Positions 21,188 through 43,800 of a DNA stretch of 56,694 nucleotides are shown in pieces. The DNA comes from Amoeboaphelidium occidentale (Eukaryota > Aphelidiomycota > Aphelidea). The notes under the pieces are model-generated. The model did not search any database. It was not told the DNA's origin and saw nothing but the letters and a program-made list of their open reading frames with translations. The stretch covers positions 1 to 56,694 of the forward strand of contig JALGPX010000074.1 in the NCBI GenBank assembly GCA_023515795.1, written 5' to 3'. Position 1 is the first letter of the stretch. Each line of letters begins with the position of its first letter. A program made the translations under genes and the position numbers.

Positions 21188-22409
21188 ATGTTAAAAGCAC
21201 TGTTGAAAAAGCAAAGCAAAGTCGCTGCACCCGTAGAGACTGACCTTGATGATAACTACACCATCTGTGGTCCAGCTATCTACAAGAACAAGGCCGGAAC
21301 CAAAGTTTACAAGGGTGTGATTAGATCAACTGGCCAAAGAGTAATTTATAAATGATCTGTGGTTAATATGTCTGTTTCAGGTCATTATCAAGGAGTATTG
21401 CTATGAGAAGTGGGTTGAAACTTATGCGTACAAGGGCGAACACTGGTTCTTCAAGAGAGATACGTTTGCACTGTGGAAAAGTGCACTTGATAAGGAATTT
21501 GAACTCCAAAGCCGCGTTTCAAGTCCTCATATTGTAAAGGCGCTTGATGCTTTCCTTAAGGATGAAAAGTACTACTTGATCACGGAATATTTCAGTGGCA
21601 GCATGACATTGGAGGCTTATGTTCATTTGAAGCAGAGGGAATTGCGTGGTTGCTCCAAGAGAAAGAAGGAAAAGTTTGGCAAGGAGTTTACTCGTCAGAT
21701 CTTGAGTGCTTTGGTAACTCTGCATGATAAAGGAATTGTTCATGGCGATTTGAAACCGGAGAATATGATTGTATGTCCTGACTTGCCAGATCCGGAGTGC
21801 AATAAGACCCTCTTTGATCCTGTTGGAGAAAAATCATCACTTAATTCCATCAAGTCCAAGAAGTGGACTGCTCCGATGTTGAAGTTGATTGATTTTGGTA
21901 ATGCTTTCACCTTTACCCATCAAATGTCTGATTTTATTGATTGCAAAACTGGCACTAGAGGGTAAGTTGTAATGACTACTCATTATGGCTTACTCTTTAG
22001 ATTTTTGTCACCAGAAATGGTCAACTTTGTACCAAAGTTTTATCCACCAGTTATTGATGTCTGGCAAATGGGTGTAATTTCCTACTTTTTGATTAGAGGA
22101 AAGACTATTTACACTTCTTACAAGAGCTATCATGGTGTTGACAGATCTGGCTCTCACTTTATTCAAGAATATGTCCGTTATAGAAAGCAAATTCAAGAGC
22201 ATAGTGATGAAGCCAAGATTTTCATGAACTTGGCCCTACAAGACTCCACCAAGAAGAGACCAAGCGCTTACGCTTTGGCATGCTCTAAATGGATCAATGG
22301 AGATTACAAGGATAGAACTCCTTTGGAGAAGCAAAAGTATAAGTTCTACATGAACCAATGCTTGCCTAAACACGCAGAAGCAACCTGCATTTATGTTCCT
22401 CTGGCTTGA
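21188..22409 (+). CDS. Protein kinase with HGD catalytic loop, 372 aa
   Basis: Predicted exons 21188-21316, 21381-21961 and 22001-22409. The second intron (39 nt, GTAAGT...CTTTAG) restores GTRGFLSPEM, a classic activation-loop to APE region; the first (64 nt) joins GTKVYKG to VIIKEY, the beta-3 Lys strand. The catalytic loop reads GIVHGDLKPENMIV, with Gly replacing Arg of HRD, and LIDFGNA is the DFG metal-binding motif. IDVWQMGVISYFLIRG and the final helices make a complete C-lobe. The glycine-rich loop is poorly conserved. It is a single-domain cytosolic kinase with no targeting signal and is probably active. I cannot assign a subfamily. An insertion between PENMIV and LIDFG (about 30 residues) is unusual. 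Confidence 0.82.
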
Positions 22410-24414: not shown

Positions 24415-27400
24415 ATGGAGTACAACACGACGCTTTCAAGGAGACCGTCTACTCACGAGGACTCTTTGATTTCATATGCGCGTTCTCTGTGGCAAAGTTC
24501 CTGGAAACACGATAATGACTTCTCTGGATACTTATCAAAACTTACAACGGGCTCATACAAACGATGGATAAAACGATACTATATTCTCAAGAAGGACGCA
24601 ATTTTTTATTTCAAGTCATCCAATGACTCTGTGCCTTTGGGTGTTCTGTTCATTGATGGCACATGCAAAGTTTCTTTGGATGTTGTGGACGAGAAGGCTG
24701 GAATCCGTGTAAAAGTAGCTTCCTCATGCTCTTTTGAGGCACTAAAGACTTTTGAGCGAAGGGAGTATTTACTCTTGTGCTCCGATGTTACCGATGCAAA
24801 GTTGTGGGTTAGCGCGATCGAGCATGTGGTTGAGGAATACTATTCTGGAACATCTGAACAAGAGCGGAATGAGCTCAAAGTAAAATCAACAAAGCAATTG
24901 GAGCCGTTGCCTATCCTGCCTCCTGCACCTCCACCTCCTTTACCCATGGTGGCAGCAGCTCCAGCCGCAAAGACGAATGAAGCAAAACCTCTGAGAAAAT
25001 CGCGATCAGATTCTACAAAGAGTTTAACGGGTACAGAAACACAGTCGCTTTACACAGTTTATATGCTTGCAAGACAGAAAATATCTGAATGTGTGAAACT
25101 AATTGTTGCATATGCTGCTGATAGTGACGATGCTCCACCAGTGAATTACGTTGAACTAGTTACGGTTGTTATCAAACATGTTCGACAGCTCTTGTACTAT
25201 GTAGATTCTAATTCAACCAAAACTATGGATAATGGCGATTTATGTACTTTTATGAGCAAACAACAGTCTCTTATTATTGATCGCTGCAAAGTTATTGGGA
25301 TTCAAGCAAAACATATCACTGACGAAGAGTGTCTTGGATTTAAAAGACCGGGATTAGCTCGTGAATTGGCTGTATTACTAGAAGGATTACAAAAAGAATT
25401 GAACGTATTTGTTAGTTTGGCTAAAAGCTTGGGTATAATCGATGAAATACTATCAAAATGTGATGATTTAACTGAAGACATTTCGCCCGTCATTACCACT
25501 TGTATTTTAGATGTTCTCCATCATATTTTATCAGCTTCGTCTTTTATTCAGTCTATGAATGCATCAGAATCACTATCTTTTGTGAAGAAACTTTGTAATT
25601 TTGGAAAAGAATTATTAAGCAACTACGAAAAGTGTGTCACTGTTTCAGATAATCGCACATGCTCCGTGCATTTGGATGAACTTTATGCAAATCACAAGCT
25701 TTACAGTGATAGAAGATTGTGGTTTAGCATCGTCAACAAGATTCGAGATTTAGTGGTCGCTGTTGAACAATCAACAGATGCTTTCGATATTTGGTCCAGT
25801 CCTGATGTTCTAATGACTGTTTCTGAGAACTTGTTTTCATTGTGTGCATTATTGTTGCGGTTTATGTTAACAGTGGGTAAATTGGAGAGTTACATATCGA
25901 GACTCAAGGCTGATAATGGATTCTCATTGTTTGTACAGGCGATAAAACCTATGAATGTAGAGAGTATGCTAGATTGTGATCCTCCTTCATTTGTACCACC
26001 ACCGCCTCCTGCTCTAACAATCAATCCTGATAACGCTCTTATTTCTNNNNNNNNNNNNNNNNNNNNNTAAAACCTATGAATGTAGAGAGTATGCCAGATT
26101 GTGATCCTCCTTCATTTGTACCACCACCGCCTCCTGCTCTAACAATCAATCCTGATAACGCTCTTATTTCTCTTCATCAAAGCCCACCTTCTCCAATACA
26201 TCCTATTCTGGAAGGAATGGAAACTTCCATGCTTTCCACTGCTGGGATTTCTTCAACAAGAGAGAGCAGACCGTTTGACGAAATTAGCGATACATTCTCT
26301 AATGCTCTTAGTTTGGATTCTTCAAAGATCGATTTGAATGATTCTAGAAAAGCGGCGATCCGAGCGAAACTGCGAAGTTTGGAATCAAATGCTTCTATAA
26401 ACAGGAGTGTTTTAGATTTAATTGGAATTGCTAGCAAGAATTGCAAGACGCTGAAGGAATGTCTTCTTGATCCTAAACTTTCTCATGATAACACTTATTT
26501 GGAAAGGATATCTCAATGTGCTGTAGCAATAGTAATGGCTTGTTCAAGATTAGACGCAGAGTTGGACAACATATTAGAAAGAATGCGATCGATTGACTGT
26601 CCAGAACATTCGCAAGCAAAAGTCAAGAAGATTAAGTTAGTAGTGGATAAAGCGACCAACTCTCTCGAAGTATCTTTGAAGAATTGGAGTGCAATGATAT
26701 CACCATCCTCACATGCAAAGAAGATGGCTGATAATGTTTCTCTTTTTGAAAAACATTTATCAAAAGTCAAAGAAGTTTTATCGGATGTTCCTGTTGAAGC
26801 TTATCCACCGAAATCACCAGAGCGCCCTCCAACGCCTACAGACAGTGAAAGGGATGACAGAACATCGGTAACAGAGATTGATTTGCTGCTTGAACAAGAG
26901 GATGAAGCTTTCAAGAATTCAGGAGAAATCAGTTTCCGAGACGAAGGCAAGCAAGTTAAAGGAGCTACTCTTGAAAAATTGGTTGAAATTCTGACATATC
27001 ACAAACTGACATCAACAGACTTTTCATCTGCTTTCTTATACACATACAAATCCTTTGTAACAGACAAAGAATTGATGGTGCTTCTTATAAAAAGGTATAA
27101 TTGTGAGGCACCACAACACTTGGATGAGAAGCTGAAATCATTGTACTATGTGAAAAAGATTATTCCGACCAGACTTCGTGTTTTTAATTTCATCAAAATG
27201 TGGTGCAAGTCTTCTCAAATTGATATTCGTGGAAATAAGGAGTTGATGGATTTATTGACTGATTTTCTACCGACAGTAAGAGCAGATTTTTACAACGGCG
27301 CCTCCGAGTTTCAGTCTTACTTGGAACGAAAATCAAATTCTCCAGCACCTCTTATCTCAGAACGATACTCACAGCCTATTAATCCGCCTACTCCGATTGT

Positions 27401-28292
27401 TCCTAAATCTTTGGAGTTCTTGGATATAATGTCTATTGATCCTTTGGAAATGGCGAGACAAATCACAATTCTTCAGTGGAACCTTTTTACGGTTATTCAA
27501 CCGAGTGAATGCTTGAACCAAGCATGGAACAAACCAGATCTTCATCACTTGTCTCCAAACATAAGAGCCATGATTAAGTTCTCAAACTTTCTTGTTCAAT
27601 GGGTTTCTACTGAAATAGTTTCTCTAAGGAACGTTCGATCAAGAGCGCTTGTTATAAAGCATTTCATAGTTATTGCAGACAAATTGAAATCATTGAATAA
27701 CTTTGATGGACTCAAGTCAATACTTTGCGGACTTCAAGCTTCTGGTGTTAGAAGACTGAGAAACTCTTGGGATCTTGTACCCGCAAAATTCGATCTTATT
27801 CTAGATGATTTATTGCACTTAATGAGCGAAGAGAAATCATGCAAGGCGTATAGAACTGCTTTGCATTCTGTGAATCCTCCATGCATACCTTTCTTGGGGA
27901 TTTATCTTACGGATTTGACAATGATTGAAAGTGGCAATGCTGATTTTCTGAGAGAGAACAAGGATCTGATAAACTTCCACAAAAGATATCTAACATCCCA
28001 AGTTATACAGGAAATAACTCGGTTTCAGCACGCGGCATATGATCTTGAGCCTGTGGAAGAAATAGCTTCATGGCTCACATCAAGAGAAGTCAAAGATGTT
28101 CAACAGGTGTATGAAATCAGCTTAGAATTGGAACCCAGAGAAGCTGCGACATCGGGCGGTGTATTATCTGGAAACAATAGTTCTGGTAGCTTGTTCAGCG
28201 GTTCAATTTCTGAAGGATTTGGATCACTTAGAAGACGTTCAAGCAATAATTCATCTAATACTCATGCACGAAAAAGAAGCTCGAACTTTTAA
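24415..28292 (+). CDS. PH-domain Ras guanine-nucleotide exchange factor
   Basis: One gene interrupted by a 21-N gap (26047-26067) whose flanks duplicate 104 bp; without the repeat it is about 1250 residues. Domains in order: PH (about residues 35-145, SGYLSKLTTGSYKRWIKRYYIL ... KLWVSAIEHVVEEYY); proline-rich PPAPPPPLP; a long helical region; PPPPPALTINPD; RasGEF_N (about 26,950-27,300, LEKLVEILTYHKLTSTDF, FLYTYKSFV); and the RasGEF catalytic domain (about 27,420-28,110, PLEMARQITILQWNLF ... FLGIYLTDLTMIESGN). It activates Ras-family GTPases at membranes bound by PH. The Ser-rich tail ends in basic residues. The gene is convergent with the PIN-Fanzor gene, with 8 bp between stop codons. Confidence 0.92.
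25943..26171. repeat. Duplicated flanks of a 21-N gap (probable contig overlap)
   Basis: 25943-26046 and 26068-26171 are the same 104 bp with one clear difference (ATGCTAGATT versus ATGCCAGATT). They flank the N run at 26047-26067. Removing one copy gives a continuous RasGEF frame. Confidence 0.9.
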
Positions 28293-28296
28293 TCAA

Positions 28297-28318
28297 CGAG
28301 TCATTGTACAATGACTCG
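28297..28318. terminator. 22-bp perfect palindrome between convergent genes
   Basis: The arm CGAGTCATTGT is followed directly by its exact reverse complement ACAATGACTCG, with no loop. It begins 4 bp after the RasGEF stop and covers the TGA stop codon of the PIN-Fanzor gene (28301-28303). It could act as a transcript-end hairpin for one or both genes, be the 3' end of a guide RNA, or be a protein-binding site. Function is inferred from position only. Confidence 0.55.
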
Positions 28319-31300
28319 CGCAGAGCCTAATACATAGGATGCAGATTTCTTTTTAGCGGCATTTTCTAGCGCATATTCTGAGGAAGTCGATTGTCCTGAT
28401 TCTTTGTCTTTGGGCTTCTTTTTCTTCTTCTCCTTCGGATTGCGCCCATTCCTGTCTTTCTTGTTCAAACCATCGTCTTGTTCATCATTATCGTCATCTG
28501 ATTTATCATCTGGAGGTTTACACAAATACTCAGGACGTTCTCCGTTCTGTAGAATAGCAGACAACGCAGCACACATGTTGTCAGCAGCCAAAATATCTCT
28601 GTGGAATACGACGTTGCACTTGGAACATTTCTTCGCCCTCATAGACAGCGATTCTGTGAACTCATGACATCGGACACATTTCTGGGAAGTAAAATACTCA
28701 TCTACGCCAAGAATCGTTATCCCCAAAGGCCTTGCTTTCCTCACAAAGTATTCCAAGAACGAAGTATGAAGTGAACCAGTTGCATCAAAGTCTCCAGTGC
28801 CAATGCCAACGTAAATCCTCTGTTTCTTTTTGACCTTTTGATGAGGTTTCAAGCCAACCATGGAAATCAAAGCATTGAAAACACGATCCATCTCCCTTTG
28901 CTTTGCACAATGATATTCAAAAGTCCTCTTCCGAATTGCATGTGAATTGTAGAAATTGGCCCAAACTGAGTATCTTTCCATCATTCTGTTGAAATAAATA
29001 GTGATTGTTTCATCTGAATTTCTGGACAAGCCACAATTTTCCGCATCTCTCACTGGCTTATTTTCATCTTTCATTTTCGTCTTGTTCAGCCAGTTTCTGT
29101 GAAGATAATACGGTTCACCCAGGGCCTTCTTATTCACGGCTAAATTCTTCTTTGAGCCATCGGGCAGCCACGAAACAGCACCAACAGTGTACGCTTGTCC
29201 CATATCCAGTCCCATGATGATATCCTTTCCTTTTATATATGCGCGATCTCTTGAAACAACTGGTGGAGGTGGATTCTTCTTAAGTTTCCTATACTTTGTA
29301 TCGATAACGTGAATTGATAAACTAAAGCCATCTGTTTCAAAAGAAGTATTTAAAACAAATCTTTCACCTAAATCTTTCTGGCCAATAAGTCTGTACTTTC
29401 TGTACTTTGCGGACTTCAAACCAAAACTCAGTTGTAGCAACTCGCCTGTTTTGTCCCTTTTCATCAGAGGACCAGCCTTCAACGGATCTAGAAAATCCGC
29501 AAACCAAAGCCGGGAGTCTTTTGTACCGATAATGCCGAGTAGACAATCTTCTGTCAGACTGAGAGGGAAAAAAGACGGCTGATAATTTGGAAAAGATCTG
29601 TATCGCTGCGAAACTGGCAGCATATCATTCAACAAAAAAAACCATCGAACGACTGAATATGTTTCCAACCTCGTGGGGTCAAATTGTGGAATTGTTGGTT
29701 CTGGCTTTGTTTCATCCGCAGACTCCTCCAGCTTGCGCTTCCTTGGTCGCAACTTCATCTTGCTCGTAGAACAATGGGAAGTCATCATTTCTGTGTTATT
29801 AATATTTTCTATTAAATCCAAGTTAACTCCATGGTCTAGAAAATGAGAAGATGAACTAATAGAAACTTACCTTTCATAGACTTCAAAGACTCCAAAGACC
29901 CAGGCAAAGTTCCTTTTTGTTCCACTGCCGACATCAACGCATTGAGTAGTACTTCAACTTGATCCGTTTGAAACGGCGAATTCTTCATAACGCTTTGCGC
30001 AAGCAGAGGTGCACTTCCCACAAAATGTCTGGCCACAATTGAATCCATTAGTTTACTTTGAGCTTGCAAAGTATTACCAGAGCAAAACGAGACATATTCC
30101 AATTCTTCTTCTGTTAGATTTAAGCCAAGCTCATTATCTTCTACAAATTTCTTCATCTTTTGAAACAGCTTTCGCCCTTTACGCCCCCGCTTCTCCGGGC
30201 TCAAAAGAAATGAAATTAAGTTGTACCAGACTTTGCAGCCACCTCCAACACCAAATAGCAATTCATTCTCGACAATCAAGTTGTTCTGCACATTCTGAAA
30301 GAAAAGGTCAGCAATGATAATCGCTGCCTGTGATGCCTTATTGACTAACTTCACCACGTTCTGTAACCTTTTTAAAATAGTATTCTGTATTGTGGCATCT
30401 AAAGAAGACTTCTTTACTTGGCTCTTCAAGGTCCCCAACTCCCAAGTTTTCATTTGATATTTCTGTTTTAACATTTTTATATTCAAAGTGGCTTGAGACA
30501 ATTTGTGAGCCCCATGCGGATTTTCAGAGGGAACGGATCTGGTAAACATGGCTGATTTTAAATATCTTGCTCTCTTGTTTTTCTTCTTTCCTTTTCGCTT
30601 CTTTGACTTGTTGTAAGGACGTGGCTTGATAGACACAGAACTGTTAAGCGTTGCAGCTGGAGTGATCGATAGGTTACGCAGTTTGTTAAGTCCAACTGAT
30701 TTAACCTTATAGGGACCAAAGTGAATATGCACCATGGGACTGTATCGATTGTTTTGAGATGGCACTTTCAAATGTTTAAGCTCTTGCAAAGACCTTCCTT
30801 GAGTGGTTTGACGATTTGCAGCGCGAGCAGCTCCGTAATTTTCTTTTAAAAGCTGAAGTTGACTACAGCAATCTTTAAACATTTGCTCTTGAAGACTTTC
30901 AACACAGACCGCACAACTTGTCTCTTGATAATTCAAAAACACTGCACTGGCAATCTGAAAATGACCTTTTTTATCGTGCGATTGCTCAAATGTTTCCACC
31001 ATTTCTTCAGCCGTGCAAGCGCCATTTTCATTAATTTTCTGAAATTCCTTCAAACATCTCGCAATGCCGAATCCCCTCAAATTGGAAACGTAATCGTTCC
31101 CCGTAACAACTGCCAAAGCCCTCCAACACTCTCTGCTTATTCCAATCTTTTTAAGTGCAATTTGTTCTCGAAATAGCGTGAAATGCAACGACAAGCAATC
31201 CAATTTGTTTTTGAAGAAGGACTTTCCGACTATCGGGTGCCCGTAAAAAAGAAGATCAGAATCGTTTGAGATAATAATTGTATTCGACATTTTATCAGAG

Positions 31301-31809
31301 TTTGAAGGCGATAGAAGACGAGCGATTGCAACATCAGCCTCATATGGAGCTTGAACGAATGATAAATTTTCTTTTTCAAACGCTTCAGAGATACAATTAG
31401 TATGATATTTCATTAATCTAAAGCAAGAGGCTCTTAGTTTGTCAAGTCTTTTCCAAACAGACGTTGATACCCTACTCTGTGGATCCACACTGTTAAGATT
31501 ATGTGAAAATGATTGCATTCTGAGATCTCGCTGAGTTTCTCTCGCCAAATGAGCTTCATGCTTTTCAGCTGAGCGAGCACCATCTAGTACAAAAATAACG
31601 TCCATACCATCAAATATCTCATTTGAACATTTGGCGAAAGCTCTATACCGTTCATCCAAAGCATAGTATCGAATCAGATCAAAGAAGCTTCCGTAGAGGT
31701 CCACATAAACCTTGTATCCCTTAAACATCTCCTTAAACTCTTGAAGATTAACAGTTTCGGAGTAAAGCTGATGTTTCTTGGCAAAAGCACTAAACCCTTT
31801 AACCCCCAT
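28301..31809 (-). CDS. FEN1/XPG-like nuclease fused to Fanzor RuvC nuclease, 1157 aa predicted
   Basis: Predicted exons 31809-29871 and 29835-28301, joined by a 35-nt intron (29836-29870, GTAAGTTTCT...TTTTCTAG) that fits in phase (646 codons plus 1 nt, then 1535 nt). The first part is a complete FEN1/XPG PIN-type nuclease: MGVKGFSAFAKKH start, VYVDLYGSF, VIFVLDGARS, QAPYEADVAIA, NDSDLLFYG and VTGNDYVSNLRGFG hold the acidic metal ligands. A basic patch (KSKKRKGKKKNKRARYLK) and helical region follow. The second part is a Fanzor: NLS-like KLRPRKRK, RuvC-I IIMGLDMGQA (Asp ~857), GVDEYFTSQKC (Glu ~1026), a zinc ribbon CVRC/CSKC and RuvC-III FHRDILAADN (Asp ~1060), then a lysine-rich tail. Fanzors are RNA-guided DNA endonucleases related to TnpB. 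The Fanzor part has no upstream ATG of its own before residue 12 of its open frame, which favours the splice. Alternative: two separate genes. Confidence 0.8.
29836..29870 (-). other. Predicted 35-nt intron joining the two nuclease halves
   Basis: On the minus strand the intron begins GTAAGTTTCTATTAG and ends CATTTTCTAG. Length, donor and acceptor match the introns of the receptor-kinase and verprolin genes here. It is phase 1 on both sides and gives the junction K-D-H-G-V-N. Confidence 0.78.
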
Positions 31810-32383
31810 TGAATTATTATATTTTGTAGTAGTAGTAGACGAGTGAGTTAAATGACAATTTTCGTAAAAAAGCGAAACATTTATCTGATCGGCGACAGCG
31901 CAACCGAAAGGTTAGGAATGAAGTGTAGAATATCTCACGGGGAGCAAAACTATTTGTATTCTACGATTAAGCTTCTGGTTACTTCGCAAAATGATATTCT
32001 ATTCTCTTAAAATTCTCCGCGATTTTCGATCTTTGCAGCAAATGGGTTCAAAGGAGAGCGAATACTTCGAAACAGAACTGAAGAGTCAACCTAATGATCT
32101 AATAGAGATGTATGCAACGACGTTTTAGAGTTTAAACAAATTGCTTCAAAAACAATCAGATTTCAAGATCCAATGAGATTTGAGTGTTTGTACACACATG
32201 TAACCTTGAACGATCAAATCAGCCAATGATATCGCCGCATTTTGAGGAATTGGCCAATGATATTGCAGGATTTTTATTGAGCAAGATATACCCCTTTAAG
32301 AAAGCACATTCGCACTCCAGCTCGCAGCATGTAGACGCTTGAGCTGGAGCTCTGCGAGATAAAATCAGTTTATCTTTCAATTA
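31810..32383. other. Intergenic spacer upstream of the PIN-Fanzor gene
   Basis: About 570 bp with no open frame worth calling. It has a short TAG/TAC trinucleotide run next to the start codon (near 31830) and two similar phrases, AGCCAATGATATCGCCGCAT and GGCCAATGATATTGCAGGAT (32221-32270), forming a tandem repeat of about 38 bp. No inverted ends matching the downstream side of the nuclease gene were found by eye. It should hold the nuclease promoter. Confidence 0.5.
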
Positions 32384-36927: not shown

Positions 36928-39900
36928 ATGCTAAGTTTGCTTACTTGGCTAGCTGTTATCATCTCTTTGGTTGCTTGCCTTGCTCATGAAAAGAGCTACT
37001 TGTTACAAGACGGTTCTTCATCCATCAACCGGATGGCAATTTACCAGAACTCTTTGCTGATAACCACTTCAAATGATATCGTACAGAAAGATATTGAAAC
37101 CGGGCTGGAACAAAGAACATTCAGAGCTCATACAAATCAAATCATGACATTCTTAGTCACAGAAGATTCTAGGATGATTACAGCAGGTTGGGATGACATG
37201 ATCATCGTCTGGGATTTGGTATCAGGGTCGTTATTAAAGAGGATATCGCTAGGATCTTTGAATACAAATGTTCAGGGTATAGCATACTGGAATGAACAAG
37301 TCATAACAGGCGGAGATGATTCAAAAGCCAGAAGGATTGACTTAACTACGGCAAGAGTCACCAGGACTGTAGGTAAGTTGATTACAGTCTTAAGCTTAAT
37401 TCTGTAGACATTACCGAGAAAATCTTATGCGTTGCCGTTTCTGGAGATTTTGTGTATTTATGCAGGAAAAGCTTCTCATCAGGCATCGTTAAACTTCGAA
37501 TAAGTAATATGAACTCTGTGATGCAATTTGGTTCTGCTATTCAGACCGCATTTTCCTTACATTTTCATAACAACATATTGTTTTCTGGATTAGACGACTT
37601 CACTATAGTTGCCTGGAATCCGGACACCGGTGGTGCTATTCGAACATACAATGGTCATTCAGGATCAGTATTCGCTTTGGCAACAAATGGCGATGAGCTC
37701 TACTCAGCTGGAGTCGATAAAGTTATTTTGCAATGGAACATACGAAGCGGAGAATTATTACAAGAGTTTCCTCCTCACCATATAAATAAGATTACAAGCT
37801 TGGCACTAAAAGATGGTTTAATATTTTCTGCAGGCTTCGATGCAGAGATTGTTAAGTGGAACTTAACTACTGGGGAGCAACTGTATGTCTTTAAAACCAG
37901 TAGAATTATTTTAAGATCTGTTGCAGTCTGGAAAAATTTTGTAATTAGTGCCGGAGATGAGTCAAAAATAGCTATCTGGGATAACACAGCCGACAGCATA
38001 GAGCCACTGAAAATATTGACTGGTCACATATTCCCTATTAACTGCCTTTTAGTTTCCGGAGATTTTCTATTTACGGGCAGCAGTGACAAAACTGTGAAAC
38101 AATGGAAACTAATGAATGATAATCCAGAAAAAGAATTCGTCGGTAAAAGTATGCACGAGAAGCTCACATTTAGGACATCTTGATACTGTCTTGGCTTTGA
38201 CAATAAGTGAAAACATTCTTTACTCAGGGGGTAGAGATTTTGTGATCTTATCATGGAATGTTACAACTGGCGCAAAGCTTGGCGAATTTGTTGGCCACAC
38301 TGATCTGGTTTCATGCTTGCAGGTTAAGAATGAGTTACTCTACTCTACTTCTGATGATGAAACAGTAAGAATATGGAACAAAGACTCTCGTCACCTAATC
38401 GAAATATTTCAAGGTGATTATATGCCTAAAACGCCTGATTTGTAGCTGTAAATTATGTTACCTCGATTGTTCTGAATGAAGATCGAATGATTATTGGAAC
38501 TTACAGCGGTTTATTCAGTGTTTCATTATCAACATTGTCTGTAACAGCCGAGCAAATTGGTAACATCACTGGAGCCTCAGATTAATTTTAGAATATTTTG
38601 CTTGTTTATGCGTTGTGCTTGGAAATTCACGTGTATACAGTGGTCATGTTAATGGCATGATCAAAATAAGTGATACGGAAACTTTGAGCATTTTTGGCGT
38701 TCTGTACGGTCACCAAAACCTATTAATGTCATTATGTCTTGATTCTCTCGGGACACTCTTTTCGGCAAGTTTCGACGGTTCCATAAAAAAATGGGACCTT
38801 ATATCCCGAAAAGTCGCATTTTCATTTGAGAACAGACGCAACTCTGTAAGGTCACTTGCCGCTTCTGGAAACTTTCTGTATACAGGCTTACGGAACGGCA
38901 TGATAAATACTTTTGATGTGAATAATGCATTCCTGCTCAGATCATCTTCATTACACGAGAAGGAAGTGACATCGCTGATTATTCTTGGAGATCAGCTCTT
39001 TTCGTCGGGGCTTGACGGCTTCCTCTTGAAATCGTCTTTAGATCCTCACGAAGAATCATTAATTATTTTCAGAAATCCAAACGCTCAATTTAATAGCTTG
39101 ACATCCTTTTCAAGATCATTGATATTTATTGAGAATGAGAGAAAGATATATCTGCATCCACTTAATGACACCAAGAACACAACGATGATTGTCGAGTCGA
39201 GTGTTCCGATTATTTTTTTAGCGGCTGATAGTGAGACAATTTATGCTGGTGTGATTTCAGGTGCAGTTCTAGCTTGGAATGGGAGTGATTTCTCCTTTCA
39301 ATTTGAACTAAAAGGTCACAATTCGAAGGTCAATTACATTTTATTGCATTCAAATACGCTTTTCTCTGCTTCTGATGACCAGAAAATCATAATGTGGTCG
39401 TTAAGAGAAAGATCCGCGATTAACGAGCTAAAGAGGACTTCGCCAAACTCACTGGGGCATATCGGGCCTGTGAACGGGTTGTCTGTTTGGAAGGAGTCTT
39501 TGTTTTCAGCTGGTTCTGATATGACTGTGAGGAGGTGGGATATTGCTTCAGGACGACACGAAGATGTATACTTCGGATTCACAAAAGGTGTCACAAGTGT
39601 TCTATGTTTCAACAATTCTGTCTTTGGCGGCAGCGAAGATTATTCGGTTTTACAATTCAGACCCTCTTTCAAGAATGATGATACATTATTGTCTGTCTCG
39701 AAATCTTTTGAGTCTACATCAGTCCGGAAGAGGAGACCCAAAGCAGTCACTGGAGCTTCAAAAGAAAACACTTCTGGTTCACAGAATCTCTTTATTATTG
39801 TAGCCGTATCAAGTGCAACATTTGTTCTTTTAATTGTCGCTACTATTTTGCTGTATTTACGAAAGTTTAACATAAAGCCTACTCCGCCAGTTTCGGCTAA

Positions 39901-40852: not shown

Positions 40853-43800
40853 ATGAAGCCCGAACTCATTCTCAAGTGCCTATTCTCAGTTATTTTCGGC
40901 CTGTTGGTCACAGCTTTAGAGCATGAGAAGAGTTTTTTGATGCAAGAGAGTGCTTCAGCTGTCTGGTCGATTGCTACCTATGAAGACTCACTGTTGCTTA
41001 CAACATCAAACGACATTGTTCAAAAGGACATCCATACTGGTGCAATACAAAGAACGTTTAGAGCTCACAAGAAACCGATCTTTTCATTTGCTGTCACTGA
41101 AGACTCCAGGATGATCACTTCTGCTTATGATGACATGATTATCGTTTGGGATCTTCTGACAAGCTCCATTATAAAGAGAATTTGGCTCAGGTCTTCAGAT
41201 ACTCTTGTACGCAGTATATACTTTCAAGATTCTCAGGTCTTTACGGGTGGCCTGGATAAAAAAGTAAGACAAGTTGACTTGGCATCTGGAAGAATTACGA
41301 AAACAATTTNNNNNNNNNNNNNNNNNNNTGATGACATGATTATCGTTTGGGATCTTCTGACAGGCTCCATTATAAAGAGAATTTGGCTCAGGTCTTCAGA
41401 TACTCTTGTACGCAGTATATACTTTCAAGATGCTCAGGTCTTTACGGGTGGCCTGGATAAAAAAGTAAGACAAGTTGACTTGGCATCTGGAAGAATTACG
41501 AAAACAATTTGTAACTAATTTAGTGATCTTTTAATATTTTAGCTATTGGTCGCGAAGTTTACTGTGTTGTTGCGGCGGAAGATTCTATATTTGTCGGGAA
41601 GGAAATTTTTCCTTATGGTTTGAAATTGAGCGTCGAAAGCGGGGCTATTAGTTTAAGCCTTACTGGGCACAGTGGTTCCATTTTCTCGTTATTTTTATAT
41701 GAAAGCTTTCTTTTTTCGGGCTCTTCAGATTCTACCGTTATTCAGTGGAATGCCTTGACTGGGGAAAGAACTAAGGCATATGAAGGCCATTTAGGTACGG
41801 TAAACTCAGTTGCTGTTTTCGATGGAGAACTTTACTCTGCAACGTCTTTTAAGGAATTATTCAAATGGAATATTTCCGAGGGTTTTATCACTAGGAAGTT
41901 TTCCGTTGTTGCTACTGGTGAAATGCTAAGCATGACATTCAAATCACGAACGTTATTCACCGGATCATCGGACACAACAGCTATCGGATGGGATGCCGTT
42001 TCTGGAGATATATTACTACTTTATTTAGGAAGAAATACTAAAATCCGAAGTGTTGTCTCCTGGAAGAACTTCATAATCAGTGGGGGCGAAGACGCAGAAA
42101 TCCGAATGTGGGATGTATCAGTTGATAGCATCGATCCTTTTATCGTATTAAATAATAGCCACTTACTAATTACGACTCTGAATTTGTTTGAGAATTATCT
42201 TTACTCCGGAGATTATTATGGCAATATCAAAATGGTAAGCCTGACAAATCTTACGTTGATCATGTACTTTACAAGTAAGTTTAAGGGTTATCTGGTTTAT
42301 TTTTATAGCGGTTGATGAGTCAATTAATTCACTGGCGGCGAACAAGCTTTCTTTATACGGTGGTGGAGATTCAGGTTCCATTCATCTGTGGAATATATCA
42401 TCTGGAGTTCGTAGAGCATCATTTAGCGCACATTTAGGCCCTATATCTTCGTTGCAGCTCAGTGAAGATATTTTATACTCTGGATCTTTTGAATCTACCT
42501 TGAAGTCGTGGAACACCAAAACGCTTGTAATGATTCTTCTTTATAATAGTAAGTTTCATTTTTCGCTTAAATTTTCCCAGCATTCCATCAGATCAACGCC
42601 ATTTTAGTTAGGCTAGAGTACATATTAGCTTGCAATCAACGTAGTATTGAATCTTTCTATTTGATTTCTGGTGAAACATATGCTCTTGTCGATGGTAATC
42701 TGACTTGTTCTATTTTTAATTATTTTAGAGACTTCCGCTTTTCTTTGTATTGCTTCTCGTGAAGATGTTGTTTATACTGGCCACGAGGATAGCCTTGTTA
42801 GGGTCAGAAGCTTATATTCCCTGATTTCTGTAGAATCATATGCAGGGCATTTAGATGCAGTGACTGGACTTTGTTTGGATGATAGATTTATTTTGTACTC
42901 GGCCGGGAATGACGGGGCTGTAAAAAAGTGGAACATTGCAACCCGAAGCGTGGCTTTTTCCTTTGAAATGAAGAATGCATCTGTGTATTCTCTTGCTGTT
43001 AATCAAAACCAACTGTTCGTCGGTCTAAAAAGTGGGAGGATTGACTGTTACAATATCGAAAACACCATGTCTTTGAAATCTATAGGACATCATAGCAAAA
43101 CTGTTACTTCATTGATTGCTAGTAATGGTTCTATTTTTTCTTCTAGCCTCGACGGCACAATTCTGAAAATTTCCTCAAAAGGCGATGGAAATTTCTTTAC
43201 GGTTCACAAATCCAAAAGCGAGCCTCTGAAAAGCCTTGCAGTCAGAAGTTCATTTTGGGTTGCGTTACAAGGTGATACTAAGATTGTTTTCGGCCGCACG
43301 AGCGTCAGTTCTGAATTAATTACAAGTATTGATTTTCAGACACCTTTGCGTTGCCTTGCACTAACAGAGTCTATTATATTAGCAGGCTCAAAATCTGGAA
43401 TTATTTATGGATGGGGTATTCAGTCATTGCAACCAGTTTTTGCATTGAAAGGGCATGTTTCTCCGGTAAATAATCTTTTTGCCGTTGATGATCGTTTATT
43501 CTCTGCATCTGATGATAAAACAATCATAGAATGGTCTTTGGAAAGCCAAACAGCAAGCAAAACGTACAAGAGACTATCAGCTTCCGCTCTCGGTCATTTG
43601 GGGCCAGTTAATTCTCTTTCATATTGCTATGATACTCTGTTCTCCGCTGGATCTGATTTGACCGTTCGTAGATGGAACACAAAATCAGGCAAGCACGACG
43701 ATGTTTATTTTGGTTTCACGAAATCAGTTACTGCAGTTTTGTGTTATAATGGTTCCGTATTTGCAGGAAGTGAAGATTTCTCTGTTCTGATGTTCAAGCC

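Follow-up and report, generated by a model that had tools for sequence, protein, structure and literature searches.

The window analysed here is the whole of contig JALGPX010000074.1 (56,694 nucleotides, nt; C119 among the 204 contigs of the 11.3-Mb genome) of the aphelid Amoeboaphelidium occidentale (Aphelidiomycota; aphelids are parasites of algae related to fungi, and the NCBI places them within Fungi). On its minus strand lies a two-exon gene whose product is very probably a single dual-nuclease protein, in which a predicted 5'-nuclease of the XPG/EXO1/FEN1 superfamily is joined to a Fanzor1. Such a protein was proposed in an initial annotation of the window, and is borne out by the layout of paralogous copies, the phase of their introns and selection on the main segments. 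The gene occupies an element of about 4.07 kb that is almost certainly mobile, judging from its sequence. The explanation preferred here, with a confidence somewhat better than even, is that of a transposon whose one spliced nuclease-Fanzor1 protein would combine a guided cut of the empty site with 5' resection and so promote homing.

The gene is made of two stop-to-stop frames on one strand, the first of 691 codons and the second, across a frame change, of 521 codons. Exon 1 (29871..31809, minus strand; 1939 nt, residues 1-646), which encodes the 5'-nuclease, a charged linker and a segment called helical, starts at the ATG at 31809 (MGVKGF), and its coding end reads AAAG|GTAAGT at 29871/29870. 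A predicted phase-1 intron of 35 nt follows (29836..29870, minus strand; GTAAGT...CTAG), after which reading resumes at 29835 in exon 2 (28301..29835, minus strand; residues 647-1157), which encodes the WED, RuvC and zinc-ribbon part of Fanzor1. Joined in phase, the two exons give a stop-free reading of 1157 amino acids, so that the frames, the GTAAGT donor, the intron length and the matching phase all stand as first annotated. The Fanzor frame had also been said to open exactly at the 35-nt acceptor; it is in phase there, but the exact acceptor is ambiguous, because those at 35, 44, 62 and 80 nt past the donor all preserve the frame. Two in-frame Met codons follow the first acceptor, at distances of 16 and 17 codons. 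An intron of 35 nt is ordinary in this genome, since two domain-verified host introns of the window, both of the same type as in the fusion gene, measure 35 nt (WD40 gene, 37373-37407) and 39 nt (kinase gene, 21962-22000, where the junction, at residue 204, falls inside a Pfam match covering residues 45-303). GTAAGT..YTAG occurs 4 times in the window against 1.62 expected, which is not significant by itself (at least 4 in 11 of 100 shuffles), and CTAAY branch sites were found in none of its 34 intron candidates. The long frames with their domains, the order and phase-1 intron of the paralogues and the sizes of host introns confirm, at the level of predicted structure, that the two-exon layout is not due to chance.

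The first ~330 residues resemble the 5'-nuclease superfamily. Their XPG_I region (residues 149-239; 31093..31365, minus strand), which holds E157, D159, D183, D185 and D239, matched Pfam PF00867 at 1.2e-8 with 35.6 bits (Pfam cut-off 24.9). Against the Protein Data Bank (PDB), the exon-1 sequence matched EXO1 (1.9e-6) and FEN1 (5.5e-6), and a five-row profile (A6) matched Rad2 (6e-11), EXO1 (3e-10) and FEN1 (4e-9). XPG_N gave no Pfam row at E ≤ 1, although the EXO1 alignment begins at residue 1, and for this reason the nuclease was filed as a diverged member of the superfamily and not as FEN1. The earlier description of exon 1 as a FEN1-like frame thus holds for the superfamily, but residues ~331-646 are additional to the 5'-nuclease and are probably the N-terminal part of the Fanzor. 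The MG start and seven acidic residues (D37, D76, E157, D159, D183, D185 and D239 in joined numbering), which we take to form the metal site, are present; their correspondence was taken from the EXO1 alignment, with D37 paired by eye. Six of the seven are invariant in alignment A1, and D37 occurs in four of the five A6 rows, these being all the rows that reach it.

Exon 2 matched the Cas12f1-like_TNB domain of Pfam (PF07282, 8e-11; 28577..28765, minus strand), which comprises the zinc ribbon and RuvC-III of Fanzor. The RuvC triad (D857, E1026, D1060) was found in 10 of 10 rows of profile A4, as were two of the zinc cysteines C1033, C1036, C1050 and C1053, the other two being found in at least nine. 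Triad and ribbon follow the order TS..C..C..C..C..RD, presumably a hallmark of Fanzor1 and TnpB. Comparison of the fusion family with ordinary Fanzor1 of the same genome by hhalign gave an E value of 1.8e-16, and profile A4, some of whose rows are ordinary Fanzor1, matched SpuFz1 (8gkh) at 7.2e-10. As far as their residues tell, neither the nuclease site nor the RuvC site is visibly dead, and both are likely to be active. The segment at residues ~431-640 (29890..30519, minus strand), called helical from low-confidence models only, is probably a REC-like part of the Fanzor encoded 5' of the intron, as suggested by its ratio of nonsynonymous to synonymous substitution (dN/dS) and by homology in contigs C188 and C11. 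The first half of the segment in C188 scored 18.1 bits (best of 1000 shuffles 13.5, next 6.4). In C11, an intronless open reading frame (ORF) of 576 amino acids, which has a single ambiguous base close to its start, extends from the latter half of the segment into RuvC; that half is weak when taken alone against the window family (5.4 bits; best of 500 shuffles 6.2, next 3.1).

Three other copies, C146:14857-18320, C197:23112-26623 and C129:52805-56408, have the same domain order; identity to the window is 35-38% for exon 1 and 59-61% for the Fanzor part. In the linker of each, a phase-1 intron of 41 nt is predicted, whose splicing creates an Asp codon, as it does in the window. In the linker alignment the window junction stands 17 columns ahead of theirs, and the 80-nt acceptor of the window would match their column. 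The C129 copy is covered by the NCBI model MP638_002087 (P0004), of 1047 amino acids, which lacks the first ~68 residues, spans both halves and uses the same splice, this being a predicted gene model and not a transcript; the window locus itself had no NCBI model among the protein-search matches. The order is also preserved in C188 and C11, though broken, at 22-28% identity in exon-1 parts and 36% in the Fanzor part. The predicted spliced layout in C146, C129 and C197 and the shared ORF of C11 contradict the possibility, raised beforehand as an objection to the fusion, that close homologues are always encoded as two separate genes. Fanzor parts of at least 59% identity were found at eight loci (a count that omits a 28-residue scrap in C184), with the nuclease upstream in four (C119, C129, C146 and C197); C13 and C141 stop at a contig end. 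Two further loci (C38 and C5) have the nuclease, and their sequence ends or reaches N before any Fanzor part; in C189 the nuclease pieces are scrambled.

Selection was estimated as dN/dS by the Nei-Gojobori method, codons with stops or N being removed. For C146/C129 the values were 0.17 in the nuclease, 0.10 in the helical segment, 0.40 in the linker and 0.13 in RuvC; for C197/C129, 0.17 (helical), 0.42 (linker) and 0.10 (RuvC); for C146/C197, 0.15, 0.56 and 0.13, respectively. Residues 331-430 gave 0.20-0.24. For the window copy, the nuclease gave 0.26 against C38, and the Fanzor part gave 0.15 against C13 and 0.19 against C145. Saturation was reached in C119/C146, in C119/C197 (except the linker, 0.41), in the nuclease of C146/C197 and in C119/C5.

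The whole element (28291..32364, minus strand) was delimited by the points where copies diverge, its right end being sharp at 28291 and its left end lying at 32364 +/- 3. At the 3' end, copies in C13, C145, C184 and C158 track the window to sense ...GACTCGTTGATT and diverge at 28291. At the 5' end, eight copies diverge near TTTATC, at 32364: C38, C5 and C189, which carry the nuclease, and C155, C110, C145, C72 and C24, which have no nuclease match in the 5'-end part (C5, C189 and C72 deviate within the first ~15 bases). The insertion site lies where a RasGEF gene and a proline-rich ORF, the latter with no match in Pfam, converge with their 3' ends. A hairpin lies at each end, on the left (sense 5' end) at 32310..32357 (minus strand; 67-nt RNA fold, z -3.3) and on the right at 28297..28318 (minus strand; CGAGTCATTGTACAATGACTCG, 40-nt RNA fold, z -2.5), where it overlaps the last codons and the stop. 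The right-end hairpin was present in 5 of the 5 right ends read, with one base changed in C145. No terminal inverted repeats were seen by eye, and besides the fusion gene the element holds no ORF of at least 150 amino acids. Hairpin ends without inverted repeats are a feature of IS200/IS605 elements, which carry a Y1 transposase; this enzyme (PF01797) had no match in the genome (5 of 14 control genomes were matched); RepHel (PF14214) had none either, but likewise none in the 14 controls. Helitrons end in CTRR, whereas the 3' end of the element reads GTTGATT.

These ends bear on the possibility that the 5'-nuclease half is a mobility enzyme that cuts the hairpin ends, at junctions of single- and double-stranded DNA or at cruciforms, the fusion replacing a transposase. 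FEN1, EXO1, Rad2 and GEN1 act on such junctions or on cruciform-type structures, which counts for this idea, as do the hairpins at both ends and the lack, just noted, of other long ORFs in the element and of Y1 matches in the genome. The left-end stretch is, however, common to other insertions (40 places, its own included, were scored among 69 candidates), among them short elements holding merely a scrap of ordinary Fanzor1, so that some other enzyme probably moves the latter; moreover, the left end of C129-type copies is not defined. A mobility role of this kind was judged unlikely. The same low standing was given to a wider version, in which one protein would be the entire machinery of a transposase-free transposon, its nuclease half releasing or processing the element with its hairpin ends, and its RNA-guided half cutting the empty site and thereby determining where the element reinserts, with resection built in.

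The fusion, both sets of catalytic residues and the element ends are supported by the sequence, and from them we infer guide RNA use, cutting, resection and homing. In the preferred reading, guide RNA would be made at the right end of the element, which lies 10 bp past the Fanzor stop, so that any scaffold there would have to share sequence with the last part of the coding region, and the guide portion would read into the flank; the right-end hairpin is a possible 3' part of this RNA. The Fanzor half, guided by RNA, would cut the empty target site, and the attached 5'-nuclease would trim or resect the 5' strands of the break. The 3' strands thus exposed would enter homologous repair from the element-bearing chromosome, by which the element would be copied back or retained. 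SpuFz1, the Fanzor1 of Spizellomyces, leaves 5' overhangs on cutting (PMC10432273), which are a substrate for 5' nucleases, and an engineered EXO1-based Cas9 editor is reported to raise homology-directed repair and lower non-homologous end joining (PMC11107001). The cut-and-resect role as such is held tentatively.

Several observations weigh against the reading as a single guided nuclease-Fanzor1 protein. Profile A5, built from the FEN-Fanzor rows alone, matches LaTranC (best, 5.7e-6), Cas12f1 and TnpB-type chains and no Fanzor1 chain; the helical segment could not be matched in sequence to the N-termini of ordinary Fanzor1; and the mean pLDDT (the AlphaFold confidence score) of the two AlphaFold models was only 33.7 and 36.8. 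Constraint is weakest in the junction linker (dN/dS 0.40-0.56), and in the close copies of C145 and C46 no nuclease match was found near the Fanzor part. In-frame stops occur in C146 (one), C197 (one) and C129 (at least two), which leaves the window copy as the only stop-free one among the four closest full layouts. The 130-nt right end folds no better than shuffles (z -0.3), for which reason no guide-RNA scaffold is evident; within its RNA structure the terminal hairpin alone stands out, and none of the 21 pairs shows two-sided changes. Finally, GtFz1 of Guillardia, also a Fanzor1, leaves sticky or blunt ends (PMC10432273).

The poorly conserved linker and the copies without nuclease, together with the in-frame Met codons ahead of the conserved WED/RuvC part, would suit two proteins, with the nuclease-plus-helical and RuvC frames expressed separately (from a start at the Met pair or as an unspliced isoform) and acting in a complex or independently. 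Four copies nevertheless maintain the reading frame through the predicted splice, the probable N-terminal part of the Fanzor belongs to exon 1 and shares, in part, an ORF with RuvC in C11, and the C129 copy was modelled by the NCBI as a single protein; separate expression is thus considered improbable. In a further alternative, the 5'-nuclease would not resect breaks but would shorten the guide RNA from its 5' side, or clear away RNA/DNA flaps as repair synthesis proceeds. Members of the superfamily remove RNA-containing flaps, which counts in its favour; the sequence, however, does not point to RNA substrates, nor is a guide-RNA scaffold evident, and we give this alternative little weight.

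The stops, along with the broken or scrambled copies in C188, C11 and C189, could also mark a decaying family without present function, of which the window copy would be the last intact one by chance. This has a low probability in view of dN/dS values of 0.10-0.26 in the main segments where these are unsaturated, and of the intact 1157-residue frame and a fragment copy in C13 at 97%, which suggest recent activity. Of the two roles first suggested for the fusion, transposon homing fits and a domesticated genome function does not. The intact copy sits snugly between two host ORFs, as a host gene might; yet the element is multicopy, with defined and intact ends and decayed sister copies, which argues for a mobile-element enzyme, and no orthologue was found outside the species within the limited sensitivity of the searches. 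Domestication was accordingly ranked as very unlikely, below every other alternative.

Relatives outside A. occidentale were not found in three protein searches, whose sensitivity was limited by the need for shared short words; at most two proteins, both of A. occidentale, were returned (MP638_001650 in C13 and MP638_002087 in C129). One of the three, made with alignment A1, scored 8000 word-sharing candidates and confirmed none, not even P0004; it carries no evidential weight, because lysine-rich words probably overwhelmed it. Scans of viral contigs gave pattern matches in 65, 22 and 78 stretches, with no relative confirmed. The earlier impression that the fusion is unpublished agrees with the literature search, in which no description of a flap-nuclease-Fanzor fusion was found among the listed titles of open-licence PMC articles (preprint servers and subscription papers were outside its scope); the main texts of some Fanzor papers mention neither XPG nor FEN1, and the 2013 Fanzor paper contains neither XPG nor Rad2.

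Further observations concern the genome and the surroundings of the elements. TNB-domain (Fanzor/TnpB) matches number 90 in the 11.3 Mb and represent at least three types: TnpB-like with DRDMNAARN (C71, C37, C12:80k and C54), ordinary Fanzor1 (C183, C69, C188:54k and C12:266k) and nuclease-fused. Frames that resemble FEN1, XPG and Mkt1, each standing separately and identified by eye from its sequence, occur elsewhere in the genome. The one serine recombinase match (Resolvase, 8.9e-20; C172:89432-89881, minus strand, L084) is a possible helper for the TnpB-like elements. Sharers of the left end that were read, in C11, C192, C88, C194 and C24, are short elements with a C-terminal scrap of another Fanzor1. 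Those at C11:7200-8300, C192:12050-13000, C88:94700-95500 and C194:52750-53500 consist of the left end, a Fanzor1 zinc-ribbon scrap and a right end in ...GAAGGGCCAGTTATTT; they measure ~400-460 bp in C88 and C194, and C11 and C192 each have two copies close together. DNA comparison of C129 and C197 in 150-nt blocks gave 51-72% identity in nuclease parts and 70-99% in the remainder; silent divergence is also greater in the nuclease, and the nuclease module may have been exchanged between elements. Related ORFs upstream of these two elements (C197:27323-28096, minus strand; C129:51348-52144, plus strand, in two frames) are possibly a further gene of that element type; a first guess that the C197 ORF is a dioxygenase was dropped, as it has no Pfam match. 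At the window insertion, the last two bases of the RasGEF stop codon (TAA, 28290-28292, plus strand) are supplied by the element. Short runs of N lie at 26047-26067, just ahead of the RasGEF start, and at 41310-41328, within the ORF 40853-41518.

If the preferred reading is true, the fusion would be a natural RNA-guided cutter with built-in DNA-end processing, of the kind that engineers build to favour homology-directed repair. The puzzle of how a transposon benefits from the cut of its own Fanzor nuclease would become testable by knockout of either active site, and aphelids, given the 90 TNB matches in 11.3 Mb, are a rich source of Fanzor architectures.

Among known systems, EXO1, Rad2/XPG and FEN1 share with the protein the MGxxGF start, the acidic metal-site residues, the YEAD and DSD motifs and the XPG_I region; here these are joined to a predicted RNA-guided nuclease and are mobile. 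Academ transposons are said to encode an XPG-like nuclease, for which the literature search turned up no confirming text. They differ in having a DDD/E transposase, and we know of no Fanzor in them. KolobokP, a eukaryotic transposon that combines a transposase with a His-Me homing endonuclease, resembles the present element in bearing an extra homing-type nuclease; it differs in having a DDD/E transposase with a downstream nuclease that is not RNA-guided, and its text mentions neither Fanzor nor XPG (PMC9587614). Engineered editors that couple an RNA-guided cutter to a 5' exonuclease, EXO1-based Cas9 (PMC11107001) and T5exo-ErCas12a (PMC8945719), are laboratory constructs, whereas the present fusion is natural and transposon-borne. 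The likeness with Fanzor1 itself (SpuFz1, PpFz1 and GtFz1) lies in the WED/RuvC/zinc-ribbon core, the D/E/D triad with its glutamate ahead of TS..C..C, and carriage by a transposon. The words XPG, FEN1 and fused are absent from the main texts of some Fanzor structure papers, and the present protein differs from these enzymes by an added N-terminal 5'-nuclease of ~330 residues, for a total of 1157 amino acids; on its predicted sequence, it was filed as a new variant of Fanzor1.

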